Below, piece after piece: positions 1,449 to 26,695 of a DNA stretch of 41,849 nucleotides (the stretch's first letter is position 1; every line of letters starts with the position of its first letter). The notes under the pieces are model-generated. The model searched no databases, was not told where the DNA came from, and saw only the letters and a program-made list of their open reading frames with translations. A program made the position numbers and the translations under genes. Origin of the DNA: a virus; the IMG/VR virus record IMGVR_UViG_3300025122_006252, positions 1 to 41,849 of that record; one strand, given 5' to 3'.

Positions 1449-1456
1449 TATTTATA
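1449..1456 (-). promoter_or_regulatory. Second TATAAATA box on the minus strand
   Basis: A second exact TATAAATA on the minus strand, 27 bases from the first, touching the first base of the phoH start codon. Two copies in about 110 non-coding bases is more than expected from composition alone. It may be a second late start site for the leftward pair or a coincidence of the AT-rich phoH leader. Confidence 0.25.
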
Positions 1457-2772
1457 TGGCGAAAAAAACTTATATTCTAGACACCAGCGTTTATCTCACA
1501 GACGCAAACGCAATAACTGCTTACCGAAACAACGATATAATAATTCCATTTAAAGTATTGGAAGAGGTCGACAAGCACAAAAAACGACAAGACAGCGTCG
1601 GCGCGAACGCTCGAAAAACAATCCGAACACTCGACACATTAAGAGAGCGCGGGTCTTTATACAAAGGAATTCGCTTGGCCAAAGGCAAAGGAATTATTTC
1701 TGTTAAAAGCTGCGACAAAAACACAAAAAATTTAGATTTGTACATCGCAGACAATGAAATAATCACAGTTGCACTAGAAGAACAGAAACGAAGTCCCCAA
1801 CGAAAAGTAATTCTTGTTTCACGCGATATTAATATGCGCGTTAAATGCGACGCACTGGGTCTTTTAACAGAAGACTATATTATTAATCAAGTAGTTAAAG
1901 ACACAGATCATCTGTATACAGGCTTTAAAACACATCTTGTGGACGAACAAATTATTGATCAATTTTATAATGGTGAAAAAATTTATTTAGACAAAGAAGA
2001 CATCAAGCTGCAACCAAACCACTTTTTGATGCTAGTTTCAAATTCAAATGAAAAGAAGACGGCGCTCGCAAGATTTTATAGTTATTCGCAACCGCTTAAA
2101 AGAGTCAATGGAGAATACAAGCAAGGAATTTGGAGTGTGCGCCCCCGCAATAAAGAACAAAGCTTCGCTTTCGAACTATTAATGGATCCAGATGTCAAAG
2201 TTGTAACTTTAGTTGGGAAGGCTGGTAGTGGCAAAACGCTTTTGACAATTGCTGCGGGCCTTGCACAAGTTGTAGAAGAATCCAAAGAATCTATATATAA
2301 AAGACTTATTATTTCTCGCCCAATTCAGCCGCTAGGAAAAGACATTGGCTATTTACCGGGGACTATGGAAGAAAAAATGATACCATGGTTAAGCCCCATC
2401 CAAGATAACTTAAGATATTTAATGGGAAATGATAAAGAAACCTTAAGAATGTATACTTCACAAGGTATAATAGAAATTGAAGCTTTGACTTATATAAGGG
2501 GCCGCTCAATCGCAGATGCTTTTATTATAATCGACGAGGCACAAAACTTGACAGCGCATGAATTAAAGACTATAATTACAAGAGTGGGCGAGAACACAAA
2601 AGTTATATTAACTGGAGACATCGATCAAATTGATAATGTATATGTTGATGAAACTTCAAATGGTCTAACGCACGCCGTCGAAAAATTTAAGAGTTATGAC
2701 ATATCAGGACATATTACTTTAGTAAAAGGAGAAAGATCTCAAGTTGCTACATTGGCAGCAAAAATTCTTTAA
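1456..2772 (+). CDS. phoH: PIN-PhoH family ATPase/ribonuclease
   Basis: A 438-residue, full-length PIN-PhoH (PhoH2-type) protein. Residues about 5-130 form a PIN domain with early acidic residues (LDTS, EEVDKHK), the fold of metal-dependent RNases. Residues about 230-438 are the PhoH ATPase: Walker A GKAGSGKT (about 254-261), Walker B IIIDEAQN (358-365) and a C-terminal TGDIDQID segment. Bacterial homologues couple RNA unwinding to RNA cleavage. PhoH genes are very common in marine phages; their role there is unsettled, and the tie to phosphate starvation is historical rather than shown here. The gene faces away from the secreted protease pair and begins the long rightward block. Confidence 0.93.
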   Translation: MAKKTYILDTSVYLTDANAITAYRNNDIIIPFKVLEEVDKHKKRQDSVGANARKTIRTLDTLRERGSLYKGIRLAKGKGIISVKSCDKNTKNLDLYIADNEIITVALEEQKRSPQRKVILVSRDINMRVKCDALGLLTEDYIINQVVKDTDHLYTGFKTHLVDEQIIDQFYNGEKIYLDKEDIKLQPNHFLMLVSNSNEKKTALARFYSYSQPLKRVNGEYKQGIWSVRPRNKEQSFAFELLMDPDVKVVTLVGKAGSGKTLLTIAAGLAQVVEESKESIYKRLIISRPIQPLGKDIGYLPGTMEEKMIPWLSPIQDNLRYLMGNDKETLRMYTSQGIIEIEALTYIRGRSIADAFIIIDEAQNLTAHELKTIITRVGENTKVILTGDIDQIDNVYVDETSNGLTHAVEKFKSYDISGHITLVKGERSQVATLAAKIL

Positions 2773-15558: not shown

Positions 15559-16688
15559 AAATTTATTGCATCCTTTGCGACGCGGCCCATTTTCCAATGC
15601 CCGTAATCTCCTCGGTCGCAAAGAAAAAAAATGCTACATTTCTGAGTCAAGTATCTAACAGTTGGACGTTATCTTCTTTGGCGCCGCTTTTTACCGGCAA
15701 ATTAACATCAGACATAATTGACCATGGTTTGGGGTGGCGGTCCATTACTAAAGAGTCAGTAATAGAAAATAAACAACCATGGTATAATGATGTTATTATG
15801 AACGAGATGCTTAAAAAGGACTGGGATGTACATTATCATAATAATACATATGCATACCAACTACTCTATGGAGATCCTAGAATAAAACAAACATCTACAA
15901 CTTGTTCGGAGGGCGAAGTTGAAAAAGCCGGCGCTTGGAGCGAAAAACGCATTGTTGATTTAATGTTCGGTACCGATGAGAAATCTAATGAATTCAACAA
16001 TAAAGAATTTAATTTTATAAAACAGATGCAAGAAGAGGCGCCCACCAAAAATAAATTTTATTTTATAAAGTATCATCATTTACATACAGCTATTGGAAAA
16101 AAACTTAACATAGAAGAAGCAAATCAAAAAATATTTGATTTAATAGATGCATGGGACTTTAATGAGCCAGATTCATTATTTGTTTTCTTCGCAGACCATG
16201 GAAATTATAGGCTAATTGATCCGTATTGTACGCCGCCACACGCATGGCTAACCTGGGCACTTGTTAAAGATAACACCGAAGATAAAAAAATAAACAAAAA
16301 ATTAATTTCAATAAGAGATTTATATACACTTTTTGCTGATAAAGTTGGCGTTGGTTACGATAAGATAGAAGATATTGAAAATATTTTTAGTCAGCAAAAT
16401 AGAGAGCGCGTGTTTTTTATGGAAGACGGGAGGTCAGTAATTGATAAGTCTTGTTCTACCACTGCATGTGCTATCAAAGCCATAGAGTGGGATGACAAAG
16501 AATATCCAAGCAAGTTCTTACAAGTTTCGTACCACAAGCCTCAAAATCAGTTTATAATGTTTTTATATGACGCCCCAGCGCAAAAATTAGAAATATGTGA
16601 AAACGTCGATATGGGTTTAAAACGAAAATTAATTAATAGATTTTCGTGGATTAATCCATGGATAAAGGAGTACAAAAGTGAAACTTAA
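15555..16688 (+). CDS. Sulfatase/alkaline-phosphatase superfamily hydrolase or transferase
   Basis: A 377-residue protein with the sulfatase-type alkaline phosphatase fold. Asp9 lies in the first strand, SWTLSSLAPLFTG (residues 36-48) is the nucleophile region, and ADHG with Asp214-His215 supplies metal ligands. The nucleophile position is Thr38 rather than the Cys or Ser converted to formylglycine in true sulfatases. Thr is typical of phosphodiesterases and phosphoethanolamine transferases of this fold. No membrane segments or signal peptide are seen, so it should be cytoplasmic. Lying two genes before a phosphonate pathway, it might act on phospho- or phosphono-groups of the glycan; this is inference. 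Confidence 0.65.
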   Translation: MKIYCILCDAAHFPMPVISSVAKKKNATFLSQVSNSWTLSSLAPLFTGKLTSDIIDHGLGWRSITKESVIENKQPWYNDVIMNEMLKKDWDVHYHNNTYAYQLLYGDPRIKQTSTTCSEGEVEKAGAWSEKRIVDLMFGTDEKSNEFNNKEFNFIKQMQEEAPTKNKFYFIKYHHLHTAIGKKLNIEEANQKIFDLIDAWDFNEPDSLFVFFADHGNYRLIDPYCTPPHAWLTWALVKDNTEDKKINKKLISIRDLYTLFADKVGVGYDKIEDIENIFSQQNRERVFFMEDGRSVIDKSCSTTACAIKAIEWDDKEYPSKFLQVSYHKPQNQFIMFLYDAPAQKLEICENVDMGLKRKLINRFSWINPWIKEYKSET

Positions 16689-17229
16689 TTGGAAAAAAAT
16701 TTGGATCGACAAGGGCAAAGCCACTACAGATGATTTACTAGTATTAGACGGGTACGAGAATACAAATATTAACGCTGCTTTTGTTGCTGAGAAAATCCAG
16801 CATGCTTTAGGTGTAGACACCAATTGTAGTGTTTTAGAGGTTGGCTGTGGCGCCGGAATGTTGGCACAATTTTTTAATTGTGATTATACTGGCATTGATT
16901 ATTCAGAAACATTAATTGAAAAACATAAGTTTCTTTTGGGAAATAATGTTTTTATAGCGGATGCTAACAAATTGCCTTTTGACAACAATGTTTTTGATTG
17001 TGTGTTTTCGTATAGTGTTTTTCAATATTTTCCAAGTAAAGAATACGCAAAAAAAACGATAAAAGAAATTTGTAGAGTTTCAAAAGGCCCAGTTTTTATT
17101 GGAGACTTACCTAGAGTTTCACATGATTTAAATCATCTTTTATATACTAAAGAAGAATTTCCAGGCTGGGAGACAAGTTGTGGTTTCTATAATAAAGATA
17201 GGTTTAACATTTATAGGAAAGAAGAATGA
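16678..17229 (+). CDS. SAM-dependent methyltransferase
   Basis: A 183-residue class I methyltransferase. SAM-binding motif I is VLEVGCGAG, followed by YTGIDYS and an acidic ADANKLPFD, then FDCVFSYSVFQYF. It starts with GTG, backed by AAGGAG about eight bases upstream, and overlaps the previous gene by 11 bases. It could methylate a sugar, or the amino group of the phosphonate made next door (N-methylated aminoethylphosphonates are known in nature), but nothing in the sequence fixes the acceptor. It is the last gene before the phosphonate cassette. Confidence 0.8.
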   Translation: MKLNWKKIWIDKGKATTDDLLVLDGYENTNINAAFVAEKIQHALGVDTNCSVLEVGCGAGMLAQFFNCDYTGIDYSETLIEKHKFLLGNNVFIADANKLPFDNNVFDCVFSYSVFQYFPSKEYAKKTIKEICRVSKGPVFIGDLPRVSHDLNHLLYTKEEFPGWETSCGFYNKDRFNIYRKEE

Positions 17230-17293: not shown

Positions 17294-18166
17294 ATGTTAA
17301 AAACAATTAAAGACTTATTAAATAATAAAGAAGAGGTAAACTTAGTGTGCGGCGCTAGCAACGCCATGATAGCTAAATTAGCTGAGAACGCGGGTTTTGA
17401 TGGCGTATGGCTCTCTAGTTTCGAGATGCACGCATGGAATAGATTTCCTGATGCCTCGATATTAAATGCTGCTGATTATGCCGACGCGATTAGCAAAATT
17501 GCCGATAGAATCAATATTCCAATACTAGTAGACGCCGACGAGGGCGGCCCAAGCGCGATTAATACAATAAGAATGGTTAGAGAATATTCTAAAGCCGGCG
17601 CCTGGGGAGTTTGTATTGAAGACAACCCCTCTCCCAAGAGATGTTCGTTTTATGGAATGAAAAAAGAACTTGAGAAAACCCCGACAACAGTAGGTAAAAT
17701 TAAGGCCGCCCTTGAAAAAAATAATAAAGATGGTTTTGCGGTTGTTGCAAGAACCGAAGCTTTAATTCAGGGCAGGGGAATTGATGTTGCCATTGAAAGA
17801 GCAAAAGCTTATACAGAGGCCGGCTGCGACGGCTTTTTGATTCACAACAAAAATAAAACACCAGATGAAGTAATGAAATTTTGTGATAGATATCATAAAG
17901 AGAACTTAACAACTCCCCTGGTTATTGTACCAACAACATATAATCAAATGACAGTTAATCAAATGAGAAATTGCGGCGTAAGTTTGGCCATATACGCAAA
18001 TTATTCTGTCAGGGCAACCGTTAAGGTTTTACAGAAGATGTTTCAAAGTGTTATTGAGTCTGAAACTCTTTCTGCGGGCAATGATTTTGTAGTGCCAATG
18101 ACAGCCATTTTTGACCTCATAGCGGTGGATGAAATGAAAGAGAACCAAGAAAAATATGGTTCATGA
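17294..18166 (+). CDS. pepM: Phosphoenolpyruvate mutase (first step of phosphonate synthesis)
   Basis: A 290-residue member of the PEP mutase/isocitrate lyase superfamily. It would rearrange PEP to phosphonopyruvate, forming the C-P bond in the cytoplasm. Visible are the metal-binding DAD at residues 80-82, the gating loop at 109-118, and later VVARTEALIQGRG and VIVPTTYN, which match PEP mutases. The usual gating-loop signature EDK-x5-NS reads EDN-x5-CS here (Asn111, Cys117), while the lysine before the last pair (Lys115) is kept. Isocitrate-type lyases have a Cys-Gly-His at this place, which is absent. The four genes downstream are the known next steps, making mutase much the likeliest function. 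AAGGAG precedes the ATG. Confidence 0.88.
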   Translation: MLKTIKDLLNNKEEVNLVCGASNAMIAKLAENAGFDGVWLSSFEMHAWNRFPDASILNAADYADAISKIADRINIPILVDADEGGPSAINTIRMVREYSKAGAWGVCIEDNPSPKRCSFYGMKKELEKTPTTVGKIKAALEKNNKDGFAVVARTEALIQGRGIDVAIERAKAYTEAGCDGFLIHNKNKTPDEVMKFCDRYHKENLTTPLVIVPTTYNQMTVNQMRNCGVSLAIYANYSVRATVKVLQKMFQSVIESETLSAGNDFVVPMTAIFDLIAVDEMKENQEKYGS

Positions 18167-18551
18167 GCTTTTTGACACACTAATAGAAGAGGGCTATAAT
18201 TTTTTTACTGGTGTCCCAGATAGCGTCCTTAAAACATTCCAGAATAAAATAATCTCATCAGAGTTTGATAATATAATAGCCACTCATGAGTCGCAAGCAT
18301 TAGCAATTGCTTTTGGCGCCGAACTAGCAGGTAAAAAAACATGCGTATATCTTCAAAATTCTGGTTTGGGAAACGCTATTAATCCTTTAACAAGTTTGTG
18401 TATTCCTTTTGATGTAAGGCCTTTATTAGTTATAGGCCACAGACACACGTTGCCTCAACACAAGGTTATGGGCGAGACCGACGAAAAGCTTTTAAATTTA
18501 ATTGGATATAAAAATTATATTCTGGTAAAAGGTGAAAATAATGTTAAGTAG
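18156..18551 (+). CDS. Phosphonopyruvate decarboxylase, PYR-domain (alpha) subunit
   Basis: A 131-residue protein equal to the N-terminal half of phosphonopyruvate decarboxylase. GVPDSVLKTF opens the TPP-dependent PYR domain, Glu45 in THESQA is the glutamate that activates thiamine diphosphate, and VYLQNSGLGNAINPLTSL is a hallmark segment. It would pair with the next gene product to convert phosphonopyruvate to phosphonoacetaldehyde, the irreversible step that pulls the mutase reaction forward. Most Ppd enzymes are single chains of about 370-400 residues; this one is split, as sulfopyruvate decarboxylase ComD/ComE is. It overlaps pepM by 11 bases. Confidence 0.87.
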   Translation: MVHELFDTLIEEGYNFFTGVPDSVLKTFQNKIISSEFDNIIATHESQALAIAFGAELAGKKTCVYLQNSGLGNAINPLTSLCIPFDVRPLLVIGHRHTLPQHKVMGETDEKLLNLIGYKNYILVKGENNVK

Positions 18552-19005
18552 AAAAGAGGCTATAGAATATGTTTTCGGTAAACACGGGGAGCAGTCAGTT
18601 TATGTGACAAACACCGGCTTTCTTTCTAGGGCGATATATAATCTATACCCGGGCAATAAAAATATTTTGTACATGCAAGGTAGTATGGGTTTATCTCCTG
18701 CGATTGCTTTGGGGATAGCAAAAAATACAACAAAAGACGTCATTGCTTTTGTTGGTGACGGATCACTGCTTATGCACTTGGGGATCACGCATACAATAAG
18801 AGATGAAAATTTAAGCAATTTATATGTTTATGTTCTTGATAATAATTGTCACGAATCAGTCGGGGAATATAATTGCGCCAACTTAGAGGAAAATTACCCC
18901 GGCGTAGCTAAAATATTACAGATCTCCAATGATGGCAAATCGCCACGCGTTGCTCTAGAATGTAAAACCAACATAAAACAGTTTAAAGAGTTTATAAATG
19001 GATAA
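18541..19005 (+). CDS. Phosphonopyruvate decarboxylase, TPP-binding (beta) subunit
   Basis: A 154-residue protein equal to the C-terminal half of Ppd. The thiamine-diphosphate/metal motif starts at Gly72-Asp73-Gly74 and ends at the NN of LDNNCHESVG (Asn101-Asn102). It completes the active site with the alpha subunit. The ATG at 18541 is chosen over the GTG at 18532 because AAAGG lies just upstream of it. It overlaps the alpha gene by 11 bases in a different frame, with its own ribosome site, so the split looks genuine rather than a frameshift error. The last eight bases overlap the transaminase gene. Confidence 0.87.
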   Translation: MLSRKEAIEYVFGKHGEQSVYVTNTGFLSRAIYNLYPGNKNILYMQGSMGLSPAIALGIAKNTTKDVIAFVGDGSLLMHLGITHTIRDENLSNLYVYVLDNNCHESVGEYNCANLEENYPGVAKILQISNDGKSPRVALECKTNIKQFKEFING

Positions 19006-20008
19006 TATTTTGTTAAATCCTGGACCCACCAACACTTTAGATAGTGTAAAAAATATTCAAACTAAATATTCAGATACATGTCACAGAACTGAAGAGTTTT
19101 TAGACTTGTTGGTAGAGACTAAAATTAATTTGCTTCGTCGGTTTAGCCTAGATGCTTCTTTTGATAGTTGGAATGTTTCTATCTTTGGGGGTTCTGGCAC
19201 CGCAGCGATGGAAGCTTTAATTTCTTCTCTTTTATCTAAAACAAATATTATAATAGCAGGAGAGTATGGAAAAAGAGCCGCAGAAATGATGTCACTGTAT
19301 AATATTGAAACAAAAAAATATTTTCCCAAAACAGAGAGTGATATATTAAAGATAAATTATAATACTTGGTTTTCTTCTAATCTATACTTTGTTGAAAATG
19401 AAACCACAACAGGGGAAAAGTTTTCTTTAGATGCAGTAACAAAAGTTTTTCCTAAAAGTAGATTGTACATTGATGCAACATCCGCTTTTGGCGCAACTAA
19501 CTATACAAAATATTTGAGCAATATTGATGCAATATCGTTTTGTTCAAACAAGTGCTTGCAGTCAACGCCGGGTTTAGGAATTGTAATTTGGAGAAAAAGG
19601 CTGGAAGTTTTCAAAAAAAGCTATTATTTAAACCTCGGTAACTATAGAAATAAAAAAGATTTACCATTTACGCCACCGGTGCAATCAGTCGCCGCACTTA
19701 ATTGCGCTCTAAAGATGAGCACATTAACTGAAAATGAAATGAACAGGCGCCGCGACCAATTGATTAGTGATTTACAGAAAAGCGATATTAAATGTATAAA
19801 TGAAAGACCCTCCAATTCGATTATAGGATTTGTTCATCCTAATAAAAACTACGAAGAACTAAAACATTTTTTAAAAAAAAGGAATATAATAATATATAAT
19901 GGAATAGAGAATATTAAAAACAGCTTTAGAATATCGACAATGAGCGTTAAATTCAATGATAAATATGATTTCATATTAGAGGCTCTAAATGATTCGTGTA
20001 TATATTGA
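18998..20008 (+). CDS. phnW: 2-aminoethylphosphonate:pyruvate transaminase
   Basis: A 336-residue fold-type I PLP enzyme of the PhnW family. It opens with LLNPGPTNT, has a GGSGTAAMEA cofactor loop, and Lys185 in FCSNKCLQSTPG is the Schiff-base lysine with the family's SNKC-[IL]-Q context. Although usually studied as a catabolic enzyme, the reaction is reversible. Beside PepM and Ppd it would aminate phosphonoacetaldehyde to 2-aminoethylphosphonate (AEP), probably using alanine. It is slightly shorter than typical members of about 360 residues. It overlaps both neighbours (8 and 20 bases). Confidence 0.88.
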   Translation: MDNILLNPGPTNTLDSVKNIQTKYSDTCHRTEEFLDLLVETKINLLRRFSLDASFDSWNVSIFGGSGTAAMEALISSLLSKTNIIIAGEYGKRAAEMMSLYNIETKKYFPKTESDILKINYNTWFSSNLYFVENETTTGEKFSLDAVTKVFPKSRLYIDATSAFGATNYTKYLSNIDAISFCSNKCLQSTPGLGIVIWRKRLEVFKKSYYLNLGNYRNKKDLPFTPPVQSVAALNCALKMSTLTENEMNRRRDQLISDLQKSDIKCINERPSNSIIGFVHPNKNYEELKHFLKKRNIIIYNGIENIKNSFRISTMSVKFNDKYDFILEALNDSCIY

Positions 20009-20405
20009 CATGGCAGCCGATTTATTTCATGTTGGACATTTGAATTTAATATGTCGTGCCAAGAGATTAGGAGACTACCTTATTGTAGGCGTACATTCAG
20101 ATAAAGATATTGGGAGTTACAAAAGAACACCAATAATAAATGAAAAAGATAGATATGAAATTATAAAAAGTTGTAAATATGTCGATGAAGTTATAGAGAA
20201 CGCGCCATTGAATATTTCTATGGAGTTCATAGAAAAAAATAAAATAGACATTGTAGCGCATGGTGACAATTTATCGCCCGCAGTCAAACAGCAACATGCA
20301 ATTCCTATGAAGTTGAATATAATGAAATATCTCCCCTCTACCAAGGGGATATCTACAACTGAAATAATTTCTAGGATAAAAAACGTGGAACCAGAAAATG
20401 AATAA
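19989..20405 (+). CDS. pntC: AEP cytidylyltransferase (PntC-like)
   Basis: A 138-residue nucleotidyltransferase of the small cytidylyltransferase class. HVGH at residues 14-17 is the CTP-binding HxGH, followed by GVHSD, a RTPIINEKDRYEII helix and the ISTTEII signature at 121-127. By itself it could be a glycerol-3-phosphate or phosphoethanolamine cytidylyltransferase. Directly after an AEP synthesis set and just before a LicD gene, the best fit is the PntC role, CTP plus AEP to CMP-AEP. Its first 20 bases overlap phnW and its last eight overlap the next gene. Confidence 0.82.
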   Translation: MIRVYIDMAADLFHVGHLNLICRAKRLGDYLIVGVHSDKDIGSYKRTPIINEKDRYEIIKSCKYVDEVIENAPLNISMEFIEKNKIDIVAHGDNLSPAVKQQHAIPMKLNIMKYLPSTKGISTTEIISRIKNVEPENE

Positions 20406-21837
20406 TTATTCGAACATAATTGACATCCCCGGAGCACTGGAAGGTATTGAAAATTATGTCGTGATCAAGAAATCAGATTATTTTCCAAACTATTATGATT
20501 TTAACGATGTTGACATTTTTTGTAGTAATCGAGAAAGCTTTATTAAAAAGCTAAAAGTTAATTTATCAAAGCAAATAGGAAGTGAATTTCGTGTACATGT
20601 TACCAAAAAAAAATATAACACTCACGTTGATATTTTCCCCCCGGACGCAAATAGATTAAATTTAAGGTTCGATGTATATGATTCTTTTCCGTATCAAAAA
20701 TTTTATACTAACCCACATTATTTTTTGTACATATTACATAATAAAAAAACAATTAAATATAGCGATATAGAAATACTGCTTCCATGTGATTTGGATGATA
20801 TTATTATAAGATTTTTTGAATGGAAGGAAAAGCCAGAAAAAACAAAGCACCTACTTTATGTAAAGAAACATTTAAAAGAATACCCGAACTTCATTAAAAC
20901 TGTAAAACAATATACCAATATATCAGAGCGCTCTCTAGACGTGCTTAAATTTAATTCTACTACAAGATATGATAATTTTATAATTTGGGGGAATGGTATA
21001 CCTTTTTCCCCTCAAATAGTAGAAATGATAAGAGAAGATCCTAATTTCGATATCATTACAATGAAAAGATTTCATACTGGTGATATGGGCACATTTATTA
21101 AAAAAATATACGATTGTGACCCCTATCCATGGGAGCATCTTGTCGCCAAAACACAATATTTATTAAAAAGCAAGCAAGAAATAATTTTTATTTTAGTTAA
21201 AAACAAAAACCCCAAAGAGATAGTCAAAGGAAAAGGAGAGTTTGAACACCTAGAGTGCACTAATGTTATTAATTTAAAAATAGCCATTAGGAACATGTTT
21301 AATCCAAAATGGACTCCCAACCGCACGTTGGCCCCATTAAACCCAGGCGTTTCGCACGATCATTGTATCCATGGGTCGGATCACGAAGGGCAAACGGAGC
21401 ATATTTTAAATGTTTTAGGATTACGTAGTTTAAATTTTTACAAAAGAAATGAAGAAAAGGATTATTACTTTCCCTATCACATAGACTATGTTCTTCCTGA
21501 AATAGTAGAAAAAAATATAAATGAATTACGAGCAAACATAATAGACGTCGGCCCGATACCAATTGAAAGCACGCCTCATTTTAAGTATGTTTGTGGGAAG
21601 AAAGAAGAATATATAAAATATTTTTATAACAACTTTGGGACAAAGCTGTGCGAAGATCATTTCCCGGAGAGCTTCGATAAATTAATTAACAATTTTAATT
21701 TTGACTATAGGCGCGTTGACGGAAGGGAAAGCGCCCCCATAATAAGCTCAACCAATGTTATTTTAGATGGTGTCCATAGGCTAGCCATTATGAAAAAGTT
21801 AAATCATAACAAAGTTAAGTGTTTTCAAATACAATAA
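20398..21837 (+). CDS. Unknown protein in the phosphonate cassette (nucleotidyltransferase-like N-terminus, ParB-like C-terminus)
   Basis: A 479-residue protein of no known function. Residues about 1-170 suggest a nucleotidyltransferase fold from two short acidic motifs (NDVDIFC near 40, HVDIFPP near 80) and a DDIIIRFFEW helix. The middle holds a His/Asp-rich segment with HDHCIHGSDHEG (about residues 319-330). The last 40 residues include SSTNVILDGVHRLAIMKKL, like the DG-x-HR box of ParB/sulfiredoxin-type NTP-binding domains. Its coupling on both sides, PntC by an eight-base overlap and LicD by a 12-base gap, ties it to CMP-AEP use. It might be a second transferase, a kinase-like activator or an acceptor-modifying enzyme. 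Very AT-rich. All function is inference. Confidence 0.6.
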   Translation: MNNYSNIIDIPGALEGIENYVVIKKSDYFPNYYDFNDVDIFCSNRESFIKKLKVNLSKQIGSEFRVHVTKKKYNTHVDIFPPDANRLNLRFDVYDSFPYQKFYTNPHYFLYILHNKKTIKYSDIEILLPCDLDDIIIRFFEWKEKPEKTKHLLYVKKHLKEYPNFIKTVKQYTNISERSLDVLKFNSTTRYDNFIIWGNGIPFSPQIVEMIREDPNFDIITMKRFHTGDMGTFIKKIYDCDPYPWEHLVAKTQYLLKSKQEIIFILVKNKNPKEIVKGKGEFEHLECTNVINLKIAIRNMFNPKWTPNRTLAPLNPGVSHDHCIHGSDHEGQTEHILNVLGLRSLNFYKRNEEKDYYFPYHIDYVLPEIVEKNINELRANIIDVGPIPIESTPHFKYVCGKKEEYIKYFYNNFGTKLCEDHFPESFDKLINNFNFDYRRVDGRESAPIISSTNVILDGVHRLAIMKKLNHNKVKCFQIQ

Positions 21838-21849
21838 GGAGAATATAGG

Positions 21850-22491
21850 ATGAGTTCGTTATATGATAGAGAGAGCACAGGAAAATGGTTTGGCACTAAA
21901 TATGAAAGAGCATACAACCAAGGAAGGTTGCGATCCACAAAATTACGAAAAGAAAATTTATCAATTTTAAATAAGGTTTTTAAAAGACATGATATCAAAA
22001 TGTTTTTAATGTATGGTACACTGCTTGGCGCCGTCAGAGATGGTGATTTAATAATAAATGATCGCGATGATGATGTAGGCATTTTATTGAAAGATAAAGA
22101 GAAATTTACAGATGAAGTAATGTCAGAATTAATTGATTTAAATTTTGAGTTGGTAAGAATTTCTAATCATGGAACAGACGTTCGAAGAAAAGAATTCGCC
22201 GGAGAAAAAACAAACGGCCACAACCATTCAATAACGCTTGGTCGCAATGAAATGAGTATTGATATATGTCTTTTTTCTGAGTACTCAGAAAATCAATATA
22301 TGTATTATCTCCCCACGATCCTTTTGGACAAAAGATATTTAGATAACCTTGAGGTGTTAACTTTAGACGGGGAGCCATACAACATTCCAACAGATTCTAA
22401 ATATTTACTTGAAGGCATTTATGGTAGCGATTGGCAGACTCCCCAATCTAATAAGTGGTGTACGAGCTGTAATGTAAAGTGGAGACGTTAG
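21850..22491 (+). CDS. licD: LicD-family phospho(no)diester transferase
   Basis: A 213-residue LicD protein. MYGTLLGAVRDGD (residues 54-66) followed by the acidic RDDDVGI (72-78) is the family's metal/nucleotide site, and YLLEGIYGSDW near the end is also typical. LicD enzymes move phosphocholine, or in PntC-linked systems AEP, from a CDP/CMP carrier onto sugar hydroxyls. With PntC upstream, the likely donor is CMP-AEP and the acceptor a sugar of the glycan built by this locus. AAGGAG stands about seven bases before the ATG. No membrane segments, so transfer would occur on the cytoplasmic side. Confidence 0.85.
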   Translation: MSSLYDRESTGKWFGTKYERAYNQGRLRSTKLRKENLSILNKVFKRHDIKMFLMYGTLLGAVRDGDLIINDRDDDVGILLKDKEKFTDEVMSELIDLNFELVRISNHGTDVRRKEFAGEKTNGHNHSITLGRNEMSIDICLFSEYSENQYMYYLPTILLDKRYLDNLEVLTLDGEPYNIPTDSKYLLEGIYGSDWQTPQSNKWCTSCNVKWRR

Positions 22492-22523: not shown

Positions 22524-23330
22524 ATGATTACTTGCCACGGAGGCGGCCGCCTAGGCAATCATATGTTTCGTATTGCGGCAACATTAGGATTGGCATATAA
22601 AAATGGAACATTCGCTGTATTTCCTTATTTAAATTTTCCTTCACCTTGTGGCCGCACTACTTTAAGTTATTATTTGAAAACAATATTTCATTCTTTAAAT
22701 AGAAGCGGAGATCACAACATTTTTACTTATGAATTTCAAGAGCCGCCCTATACTAGCACGATTTATCATGAAATTCCTTTTATAGATGGTATGATATTGC
22801 GTGGCCACTTTCAGTCATATAAATATTTTGATTTTTGTAGAGATTTGATTATTAATAGCTTTAAATTACCAGAGTATATGATAGAAGAAATGGATAAAAA
22901 ATATAAGCACATTCTTAAGGCCGATACCACGTCAATACACATTAGAAGAGGAGATTATTTATCTTTAGTCGGCATTTATGAGATACTTGGTGTTGAATAT
23001 TATAAGCAAGCGCTTAAAATACTAGGAGATAATCAAGAAATTGTAGTTTTTAGTGATGATATTGAGTGGTGCAAAACAGCTTTAAACTTTATACCAAAAG
23101 AAAAGATTCACTTTATTGAAGGTGAAGAAGATGTTTGCGATCTTTATTTGATGTCCAAAGTAAAAAATAATATAATTTCTAATTCTACATTTTCATGGTG
23201 GGCCGCGTATCTAAATGAAAACAAAGATAAGAAAGTTATTGCACCATGGAGTTGGTTTGGCCCCAAAAGAGTTTCATGTAACTATAAAGAAACTGCTGAT
23301 TTAATACCAGAAAACTGGATAAGAATATAA
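22524..23330 (+). CDS. Alpha-1,2-fucosyltransferase-like (GT11)
   Basis: A 268-residue GT11 transferase. GGGRLGNHMFR near the start and HIRRGDYL (residues 139-146) form the GDP-fucose binding signatures, and NSTFSWWAAYLN is the third conserved block. It would add L-fucose, or a related 6-deoxyhexose from a GDP donor, to the glycan. GDP-mannose dehydratase follows directly, consistent with a GDP-6-deoxyhexose donor. The ribosome site is weak and a 32-base gap precedes it. Confidence 0.87.
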   Translation: MITCHGGGRLGNHMFRIAATLGLAYKNGTFAVFPYLNFPSPCGRTTLSYYLKTIFHSLNRSGDHNIFTYEFQEPPYTSTIYHEIPFIDGMILRGHFQSYKYFDFCRDLIINSFKLPEYMIEEMDKKYKHILKADTTSIHIRRGDYLSLVGIYEILGVEYYKQALKILGDNQEIVVFSDDIEWCKTALNFIPKEKIHFIEGEEDVCDLYLMSKVKNNIISNSTFSWWAAYLNENKDKKVIAPWSWFGPKRVSCNYKETADLIPENWIRI

Positions 23331-23354: not shown

Positions 23355-24320
23355 TTGTCAAAAAGAGCATTAATTACGGGTATATCAGGGCAAGATGGCA
23401 GTTATTTATCTGAATATCTTTTGTCCCTAGGGTATGAAGTTTATGGGCTTATTAGAAGAAGCTCAGTTGCGGAAAACCAAGATAGCAGGCTTGGGCACAT
23501 TAATGATAAAGTTAATACTTTTTATGCTGATATGTTAGATGTTCCTTCTTTAACCAGAGTTATAGGCGAAGTAAAGCCGACGGAAATTTATAATTTAGCT
23601 GCGATGAGTCATGTTCGCATTAGTTTTGATGTGCCATCTTTTACCATTCAAACGAATGCGATGGGTGTTCTCAACCTTTTAGAAATTTACAAATCACTCG
23701 TCCCTGAAGCAAAGTTTTATCAAGCTAGTTCTTCTGAGATGTTTGGTAATTCTGTCGATGAAGATGGTAGCCAAAGATTAACAACCCCCATGAACCCAGT
23801 AAGCCCATATGGTTGCGCCAAACTTTTAGCACATAATCTGGTTAGACACTATAGAAACGCTTATAATTTGCACGCATGTAACGGAATATTATTTAACCAT
23901 GAATCTCCGAGACGAGGTTCAAATTTTGTCACAAACAAAGTTGTTAAAACTGCAGTAGAAATAAAAAAAGGATTGAAAAACAAATTAGAACTTGGAAATT
24001 TAAATTCTTGTCGTGACTGGGGGCATTCAAAAGATTATGTACGAGCCATGCACATGATCCTCAATTATAAAAAACCAGATGATTTTATTGTAGCCACCGG
24101 AGAAACCCACTCTGTTAGAGAATTATGTGAATATGTATTTAATAGCCTAGGCATGGACTATAAAGACTATGTTGTACAAAACCCAATATATATGAGACCA
24201 GAAGAACTAGAATATCTGAAGGGAGATCCAACTAGGTTTATAGAGACGTTGGGTTGGAAGCCAGAGTATACATTTGAAAGCATGTTGGATGAAATGATTC
24301 AATATTGGGAGGAAAAATAA
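23355..24320 (+). CDS. gmd: GDP-mannose 4,6-dehydratase
   Basis: A 321-residue extended SDR. GISGQDGSYLSEYLL is the diagnostic Gmd nucleotide loop, SSSEMFG the active-site strand, SPYGCAK the Y-x3-K pair and NHESPRRGSNFVT the GDP-mannose recognition loop. It converts GDP-mannose to GDP-4-keto-6-deoxymannose, precursor of GDP-fucose, rhamnose or perosamine. It begins with an uncommon TTG, well supported by a full AGGAGG (23341-23346) eight bases upstream. Slightly shorter than typical enzymes of 340-370 residues. GDP-mannose must come from the host. Confidence 0.92.
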   Translation: MSKRALITGISGQDGSYLSEYLLSLGYEVYGLIRRSSVAENQDSRLGHINDKVNTFYADMLDVPSLTRVIGEVKPTEIYNLAAMSHVRISFDVPSFTIQTNAMGVLNLLEIYKSLVPEAKFYQASSSEMFGNSVDEDGSQRLTTPMNPVSPYGCAKLLAHNLVRHYRNAYNLHACNGILFNHESPRRGSNFVTNKVVKTAVEIKKGLKNKLELGNLNSCRDWGHSKDYVRAMHMILNYKKPDDFIVATGETHSVRELCEYVFNSLGMDYKDYVVQNPIYMRPEELEYLKGDPTRFIETLGWKPEYTFESMLDEMIQYWEEK

Positions 24321-24321
24321 A

Positions 24322-25200
24322 ATGGTAAATATTTTAGTTACAGGAGGCTGTGGATTTATAGGAAGCAATTTGGTTGATATACTTGTAGCAAACCCAGACA
24401 ACAATGTTATTGTAATTGATAACTTAGAGACTGGCAAAAAAGAAAATTGTAATAATAAAGCGAGATATATTTTTCAAGATATTAGGCACGTCTTTGAAAA
24501 CCCAGAATCCCTTGAGATACTTAAAAATGTTGATATTGTATTCCATTTAGCTGCCTTAGCGAGAATTCAACCAAGCTTTGAAAGACCAAATGAAACTTTA
24601 GATGTTAATGCAAGAGGAACATCATTAGTTTGTGAATACGCTAGAAAAAATAATATAAAAGTAATTTACGCAGGTTCTAGTTCTTTTTATGGTGGTGTTT
24701 ATTTGAATCCTTATGCTTTCTCAAAGTGGCAAGGAGAAGAAATATGTAAACTTTATTCTGAAGTATATGGGGTGAGTACAACAATTGCAAGGTTTTTTAA
24801 TGTTTATGGACCACGCCATTTACGATCTGGGCCATATGCCACAGTCATTGGTATCTTTGAAGAGCAAATGTTTCTTGATAAACCACTAACAATAACTGGA
24901 ACGGGGGAACAACGTAGAGATTTTACAAACGTTGAAGACATATGCAATGCCTTAATCGCGATGTCAGAGGGCGTCTGGAAAGGGGAGGTGTTTAATTTAG
25001 GTACAAGCACAAACCACTCTATTAATGAGTTGGCCACCATGTTTAAAGAAGACGTGAAATATATTCCCCAGCGCCCGGGCGAAGCCTGGACTACCTTAGC
25101 AGATATATCTAAAACAAGAGAGTTGCTGAATTGGAAACCCAAAGTAGAATTAAAAACTTGGGTTTCAAAATGGCTACAAGATAATAAATTCAATGCATAA
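24322..25200 (+). CDS. NAD-dependent sugar-nucleotide epimerase/dehydratase (GalE/WbpP-like)
   Basis: A 292-residue extended SDR with TGGCGFIGSN, SSSFYGG and YAFSK (Y-x3-K), and RFFNVYGPRH as in UDP-hexose 4-epimerases. It lacks the features expected of GDP-fucose synthase, so the second step to GDP-fucose is not obviously encoded next to gmd. It may epimerise a UDP-sugar or act on the Gmd product in a family-atypical way. It starts one base after gmd and is the last glycan gene. Confidence 0.82.
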   Translation: MVNILVTGGCGFIGSNLVDILVANPDNNVIVIDNLETGKKENCNNKARYIFQDIRHVFENPESLEILKNVDIVFHLAALARIQPSFERPNETLDVNARGTSLVCEYARKNNIKVIYAGSSSFYGGVYLNPYAFSKWQGEEICKLYSEVYGVSTTIARFFNVYGPRHLRSGPYATVIGIFEEQMFLDKPLTITGTGEQRRDFTNVEDICNALIAMSEGVWKGEVFNLGTSTNHSINELATMFKEDVKYIPQRPGEAWTTLADISKTRELLNWKPKVELKTWVSKWLQDNKFNA

Positions 25201-26005: not shown

Positions 26006-26695
26006 ATGGCCAGGAAAAAAAATCACTACTTTACCAAAGTTCACGAACAAGCCATTATAGACTATTGCTTGACCACTGACTCAAAAGAAAGAAACGAACT
26101 ATACAACACATATATCGGCCCAGCATTTAGCGAATTAGTAGATAAAATTGTATACACTTATAAATTTACTAATCTCCCCAACTGCGATTATCTCAGAGAA
26201 GATTGTAAAAATTGGCTAATAACTGTATTAAATAAATATGATCCAGATCGTGGTTCTAAAGCCTTTTCTTATTTTAGCGTCATAACAAAGAATTGGTTTA
26301 TTCACAAAGTTAAAAAGAATGTACAAAAATCCAGACGAGAAGTAGTAATTGAAGATTTTTGCGCAACATCGAAACATCAACTAGGCGGCCAGCATCCTTT
26401 AGTGGTCTATAATACATTTATTTCAGATAGTATAAAAAATGAATTTTGGACTGCTTTTAAAAAACAAATAGAAGATTGGGAAAAATTACCCGTCCGCAGT
26501 AATGAAAAAAAAGTTATTCAAGCCGTTAAGATTTTATTTGAAGAGTCCGAAAATATAGAAATTTTTAATAAAAAAGCTATTTATTTATATATAAGGGAAA
26601 TTACGGGCCTAAACACTAAACAAGTTGTTAGCAGCTTAAACAGGATTAGAGCCCGATACAGGGATTTTAAAATTATATGGGACAAAGAAGAATAA
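26006..26695 (+). CDS. 55: Late-transcription sigma factor, T4 gp55-like
   Basis: A 229-residue sigma70-type region 2 protein resembling T4 gp55 and its marine phage relatives. Residues about 45-105 hold the core-binding and -10 recognition helices, with YDPDRGSKAFSYFSVITKNWFIHKV as the clearest match. There is no region 4, as in gp55. It would redirect host RNA polymerase to TATAAATA-type late promoters of virion genes. A good Shine-Dalgarno (GAGGAGG) precedes the ATG. It immediately precedes the structural gene run and overlaps the next gene by 19 bases. Confidence 0.82.
   Translation: MARKKNHYFTKVHEQAIIDYCLTTDSKERNELYNTYIGPAFSELVDKIVYTYKFTNLPNCDYLREDCKNWLITVLNKYDPDRGSKAFSYFSVITKNWFIHKVKKNVQKSRREVVIEDFCATSKHQLGGQHPLVVYNTFISDSIKNEFWTAFKKQIEDWEKLPVRSNEKKVIQAVKILFEESENIEIFNKKAIYLYIREITGLNTKQVVSSLNRIRARYRDFKIIWDKEE

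Follow-up and report, generated by a model that had tools for sequence, protein, structure and literature searches.

Can a bacteriophage make a compound with a carbon–phosphorus bond, and which glycan would then receive it? The question is raised by a viral fragment of 41,849 bases (IMG/VR record IMGVR_UViG_3300025122_006252), which was analyzed over its full length and is called the window here. Inside a block of glycan genes it carries a cassette resembling a pathway from PEP to the CMP ester of 2-aminoethylphosphonate (AEP).

Gene content and conservation of the cassette

An earlier note, made from the DNA letters alone, had described seven tightly spaced ORFs between 17294 and 22491, and their order, spacing and coordinates proved exact. 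All seven lie on the plus strand, as do the other window genes given with coordinates below. They encode a PepM-like protein of the PEP mutase/isocitrate lyase superfamily (17294..18166; PF13714, 3.7e-42), the alpha half of phosphonopyruvate decarboxylase (PpdA) with the N-terminal TPP domain and a GVPDS motif (18156..18551; TIGR03297, 3.4e-30), its beta half (PpdB) with the C-terminal TPP domain and GDG...NN (18532..19005; TIGR03297, 2.6e-25), a class V AEP transaminase (AEPT, 18998..20008; TIGR03301, 3.4e-45), a Pcyt2-like cytidylyltransferase (CyT, 19989..20405; PF01467, 1.7e-22), a protein without assigned family or profile match (20398..21837) and a LicD-family phosphotransferase, the proposed AEP transferase (21850..22491; PF04991, 6.2e-11). 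Successive gaps from PepM to LicD are −11, −20, −8, −20, −8 and +12 bp. By homology, these phage-borne genes would cover each step from PEP to CMP-AEP, as the note had proposed. The first five form the core of the cassette, an overlapping operon from 17294 to 20405.

Upstream of the cassette lie a PhoH-like gene (1456..2772; phrog_2765, 1.3e-111), conserved in the related contigs G001–G003, an exonuclease and glycan genes. Downstream follow a fucosyltransferase-like family 11 glycosyltransferase of the glycan block (22524..23330; PF01531, 1.8e-25), a GDP-mannose 4,6-dehydratase-like protein (23355..24320; PF16363, 1.2e-111), an NAD-dependent sugar epimerase/dehydratase (24322..25200; PF01370, 5.1e-47), small genes and a gp55-like late sigma factor (26006..26695; phrog_234, 1.1e-7) that is 54–62% identical to those of G001–G003. 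Homologues of the GDP-mannose dehydratase, about 66% identical, stand directly 3′ of the cassette in L030, L031, L032 and L034.

A search of viral contigs, which the note had proposed as a check, showed that the core recurs. A protein search yielded four related loci with identical core order, three of them with the same PhoH/exonuclease/glycosyltransferase and gp55 flanks. Scanning for the motif EDNPxPKRC added seven further contigs with PepM proteins 64–69% identical, whereas an alignment-based scan of viral contigs added none to those known, and searching genomes with the alignment of phage PepMs gave no hits. In total, the core is complete and in order on the window and eight other IMG/VR contigs (G001–G007, G010), not all of them independent, since PepM is identical in G005 and G010 and the sequences of G004, G007 and G009 are mutually close. 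In G006 (also L033) a methyltransferase gene between PpdB and AEPT interrupts the core. L002 is cut inside PepM and retains the remaining four core genes, and in G008 and G009 the contig stops partway through PepM.

Three PepM-bearing contigs also encode a gp23-type major capsid protein, namely G001 (191.7 bits), G004 (247.4 bits) and G007 (241.6 bits); no such gene occurs in the 41.8 kb window, itself a fragment. The G004 capsid gene is nearest to that of Flavobacterium phage immuto (73% identity over 44%). Gene content, order, conservation and linkage to phage genes are thus direct observations, and the cassette is borne by a lineage of T4-like phages. The T4 late-promoter octamer was not enriched. 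In the close pair L030/L031 dN lay far below dS (dN/dS about 0.04–0.15; dS was saturated in most other pairs), and the cassette is under purifying selection there. Together with the core order conserved on other viral contigs, this excludes a chance occurrence. The note had also considered that the contig might be a chimera joining bacterial and phage DNA near 17.2 or 22.5 kb. Such a gene set does occur in bacterial clusters, but the junctions of the cassette with the PhoH/exonuclease/glycosyltransferase and gp55 flanks are repeated on independent contigs, and gp23 accompanies PepM on the three contigs named above. We hence reject an assembly chimera, to which we would grant next to no probability.

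The PepM-like enzyme

The first gene had been called a PEP mutase, and superfamily, profile and fold all agree with this assignment, while the signature of the family is missing and ordinary catalysis by the predicted enzyme is uncertain. Among six models matched, TIGR02320 ranked first with 232.3 bits, under its equivalog cut-off of 319.55. The AlphaFold model (mean pLDDT 84, the motif loop being among its weaker parts) had PEP mutase 5unc as nearest fold (TM 0.88, E 8e-26), followed by phosphonopyruvate hydrolase (4e-23) and methylisocitrate lyase (1.6e-21). A BFVD fold search returned no PEP-mutase-like viral model, the top TM being about 0.5 or less. Residues D53, D80, D82, E109, R153 and H184 are invariant in a 15-row alignment; they are equivalent to the Mg and substrate residues Asp58, Asp85, Asp87, Glu114, Arg159 and His190, with roles taken from PMC7916636, and the Lys120 equivalent is likewise kept.

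The departure from the signature, missed in the earlier note, is both the most informative point of this analysis and its chief doubt. In the window PepM and every other phage PepM examined, EDNPSPKRCS replaces EDK(X)5NS, the motif by which the field accepts a PepM (PMC6697681, PMC8931226). Motif matches in L018, L024 and L027 were set aside as not of the phage type. The window enzyme has a Cys at position 117, which corresponds to Asn122 in the Mytilus enzyme. Most authors credit Asn122Thr for the difference between mutase and hydrolase, according to a review that itself doubts this (PMC7916636). A Pseudomonadota sample contained seven sequences with Thr at this position, which from the motif alone would be hydrolases. 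With a Cys-type clade, this residue, to which the difference between the two activities is attributed, would have a third natural variant. KRC is also the signature of lyases, as in L057 (EDQFSPKRCG). Mutase activity of the phage PepM is therefore not assured, given the Cys at the Asn122 position and the lyase-like KRC.

It is thus conceivable that the first enzyme is a lyase or hydrolase of the superfamily and that the pathway serves another phosphate or sulfonate headgroup, for instance via sulfopyruvate or phosphoethanolamine. The motif EDNPSPKRCS with its lyase-like KRC and the Cys in place of Asn122 would fit such an enzyme, the two-part TPP enzyme has a resemblance to the subunits of sulfopyruvate decarboxylase as well, and the CyT is closest to phosphoethanolamine cytidylyltransferase. 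PepM, both Ppd halves and AEPT all score under their NCBIfam equivalog cut-offs, which speaks against the CMP-AEP pathway. On the other hand, PepM is nearest to PEP mutase in sequence and fold, Ppd models outscore those of sulfopyruvate decarboxylase for both halves (clearly for alpha), the transaminase is of the PhnW/AepZ type, and Cys-type PepMs of Omnitrophota are fused to nucleotidyltransferases and in one genome stand beside Ppd and AEPT. We consider this alternative unlikely. PpdA and PpdB follow immediately 3′ of PepM on all contigs that reach that far, a linkage expected of a PEP mutase. Gene context, including the Omnitrophota Cys-type fusion beside split Ppd and AEPT, supports the view that the phage PepM would make a phosphonate.

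In 285 sampled Omnitrophota genomes, Cys occupies the Asn122 position of six proteins of the PepM family encoded in long open frames, where it is preceded by EDNP, EDAT or EDST; other PepMs of the phylum are canonical. Omnitrophota fusions with the pattern ED(N/A/S)xxPK(R/K)CS (L037–L042, L058) share the Cys with the phage PepM but are cellular, about 35–40% identical to it and extended by a nucleotidyltransferase domain, which was identified by profile in L029 and assigned to the other fusions by similarity to L029 or by length. In L058 a Cys-type (KKCS) fusion adjoins split PpdA/PpdB and an AEPT–nucleotidyltransferase fusion, so at least one Cys-type PepM is tied to AEP synthesis by context. 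L028/L029 are neighbored by a class III aminotransferase, a HAD phosphatase and an AMP-binding-like protein, and Ppd is absent. In the tree the phage PepMs form a single, fully supported clade on a long stem; a common clade with the Omnitrophota Cys-type proteins was neither demonstrated nor rejected (AU p 0.27).

Decarboxylase, transaminase and cytidylyltransferase

TIGR03297 is the best model for both Ppd halves. Neither half reaches the cut-off set for the full-length protein, which is what a split enzyme should give. PpdA matched TPP_enzyme_N (3e-6) and PDB 9iz3, a 'putative phosphonopyruvate decarboxylase alpha subunit' (9.5e-14), and PpdB matched TPP_enzyme_C (PF02775, 1.6e-11). A split Ppd is also found in the bacterial clusters L062, L063 and L065 and is hence not a phage invention. 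AEPT gave 155 bits with TIGR03301, best among eight models and below the equivalog cut-off of 360.8, and scored above the cut-off of PF00266. Its best PDB match was the PntC–AEPT fusion 6pd1 over the aminotransferase part (4.5e-24), and its catalytic Lys185 in SNKCLQSTPG is invariant.

The cytidylyltransferase had been called PntC-like, which is the wrong family. CyT matches PF01467 alone, with HxGH and GISTT-type motifs, and not the LicC-like PF12804 (NTP_transf_3). Its similarity decreases from phosphoethanolamine cytidylyltransferase (Pcyt2; 3elb, 1.9e-43) to choline-phosphate cytidylyltransferases (CCT) and the CyTase domain of Fom1 (5x3d, 1.6e-15), and we rejected PntC on these grounds. 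We infer that AEP would be its substrate.

Proposed pathway and acceptor

Catalysis, product, acceptor and purpose are deduced here from homology and gene context, and the chemistry first proposed for the cassette is probably right. The non-canonical PepM would convert PEP to phosphonopyruvate, and the two-subunit Ppd would draw this unfavorable equilibrium to phosphonoacetaldehyde, from which AEPT would form AEP, perhaps methylated afterwards. The phosphoethanolamine-type CyT would then combine AEP and CTP to CMP-AEP, and in this phage LicD might transfer P-AEP onto a glycan assembled in the cytosol by the neighboring sugar and glycosyltransferase genes. The acceptor would most likely be a glycan on phage structural proteins, with a host surface glycan as a close second. 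As best explanation of the whole locus, we lean slightly toward a phage that makes CMP-AEP, with a virion glycan as the likeliest target of decoration. That T4-like virions display AEP glycans made by their own Cys-type PEP mutase clade, excluded so far by the EDK(X)5NS filter, is a bolder proposition that we regard as rather doubtful.

A hint on the acceptor comes from the glycan block, which contains aminotransferase, dehydratase, epimerase, deacetylase and glycosyltransferase genes. No gene of this block in the window was recognizable as a flippase, a polymerase or a ligase, and a crude hydropathy scan gave no sign of polytopic membrane proteins; its isolated hits in epimerases resemble Rossmann strands. 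This modestly favors a cytosolic acceptor such as a virion protein, the absence of a flippase being a weak argument in a fragmentary record and with a host that might provide the export machinery. The same CMP-AEP pathway could instead place AEP onto host surface glycans and so block superinfection or shield the cell. Bacterial phosphonate clusters mostly serve cell-surface tailoring and LicD-like proteins go with surface glycan clusters (PMC6697681); for bacteria, defense against phage and grazers was proposed (PMC8931226). Against this stand the lack of recognizable export and ligation genes in the block and, presumably, the little time that lytic infection leaves for surface remodeling, and we rate decoration of the host as a possible but less probable outcome. 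A modification of phage DNA by AEP or by its CMP ester, rather than of protein or surface glycan, would be very improbable. The pathway looks cytosolic in a T4-like phage, and in Vibrio phage Va2 the genes for PepM and a Ppd-like enzyme are neighbors of ribonucleotide reductase genes; yet the window cassette lies within a deoxysugar/glycosyltransferase block away from nucleotide genes, and no DNA-modification gene was observed nearby.

Phosphonate on the virion would withstand phosphatases and could change adsorption or recognition. If functional, the cassette would make viruses direct producers of C–P bonds and a possible unrecognized source in aquatic phosphorus cycling. The motif filter would then undercount phosphonate producers, and surveys would have missed viruses as well as some bacteria.

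Comparison with known systems

The phage cassette shares with bacterial Pnt (phosphonyl tailoring) clusters, such as those of Treponema denticola and Atopobium rimae (PMC6697681), the genes for PepM, Ppd, AEPT, a cytidylyltransferase and LicD-like proteins or glycosyltransferases as well as the CMP-AEP logic. It differs by a stand-alone PF01467 CyT where Pnt clusters have PntC of PF12804, by a two-gene Ppd and by a PepM lacking EDK(X)5NS. In Fom1, a cytidylyltransferase–PepM fusion of fosfomycin synthesis, a PF01467 domain likewise uses CTP to activate the phosphonate made by way of PepM; the phage CyT, however, is a separate protein closer to eukaryotic Pcyt2, with AEP as presumed substrate in place of hydroxyethylphosphonate.

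No characterized phage with the complete pathway was known to the author of the earlier note. At the nucleotide level, megablast detected the cassette in none of 50,697 phage records, and the AEPT protein search gave weak matches only, outside convincing phage records. Among the phage records and papers searched, Va2 (MW073017), an isolated phage, is the only one to combine a PepM-family gene with a Ppd-like, full-length TPP enzyme. In contrast to the window, no AEPT was found there, the two genes are non-adjacent and share no operon, and the PepM is 22% identical to ours with the motif EDKNPSAKINS. Both genes (L009, 7143–8243 and 11944–13248) flank the ribonucleotide reductase genes of Va2. 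No phage phosphonate-synthesis operon was found in the open-access literature, a search that covered few subscription papers; its nearest mention is a predicted PepM–cytidylyltransferase fusion in a glycan block of a Borg extrachromosomal element (PMC12660748). Like the phage, the Borg is a mobile element, but an archaeal one with a fusion protein, and the passage on it describes no five-gene operon. Two gut 'Bacteriophage sp.' records of INPHARED marked UNVERIFIED (L010, L011; MT836947, MT837901) resemble bacterial phosphonate clusters, from which it follows that phage collections hold mislabelled DNA.

LicD and variable neighbor genes

The earlier note had proposed LicD as the attachment enzyme. 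Its family identity stands (PF04991, 43.3 bits against a gathering score of 22.6), but not its general role, as it occurs in the window, in G001 (two copies) and in G003 and in none of the other contigs searched. A profile search of G002, G004, G007 and G010 detected no LicD, so that the transfer step is not uniform among these phages and LicD was rejected as a core member. It lies outside the core together with the 20398–21837 gene. For the product of the latter we found no Pfam, PHROG, NCBIfam or PDB match and no viral relatives, which makes it specific to this phage among those compared; its single-sequence model (mean pLDDT 32) was useless. A C-terminal LDGVHR stretch faintly matches a domain of cassette-adjacent glycosyltransferase fusions in other phages, a weak, local similarity (single-target E 1.6e-4).

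Also overlooked before was a SAM-dependent methyltransferase abutting the cassette 5′ of PepM (16678..17229; PF08241, 2.6e-15), a probable tailoring enzyme of the pathway. Its homologue in G006/L033, inserted between PpdB and AEPT, is 46% identical, and we think that the gene probably belongs to the cassette. The variable neighbor genes suggest tailoring in general.

Further genes recur near the cassette in other contigs. A PhyH-type (2-oxoglutarate/Fe) dioxygenase is encoded in three cassette phages (L003:9256–9990, L033:9231–9959, L035:10682–11410), in L003 immediately 5′ of PepM. In L032 (9541–10383) and L034 (8573–9415) CyT carries a fused cupin-like domain, which in others forms a separate gene 3′ of the cassette, e.g. 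L030:11171–11575. Near and 5′ of PepM, where LicD was not seen, a nucleotidyltransferase-resembling protein with a NIVILAxGPPKPNRNRHLE-like start recurs (C-terminus of L003:5806–8535, L030:7301–8002, L032:6189–6863, L033:9959–10624). Finally, G006 encodes on the minus strand a RuBisCO-like protein (L033:7031–8167; PF00016, 8e-36) that overlaps the PepM start by 4 bp and whose closest PDB entries are RuBisCO and RuBisCO-like proteins.
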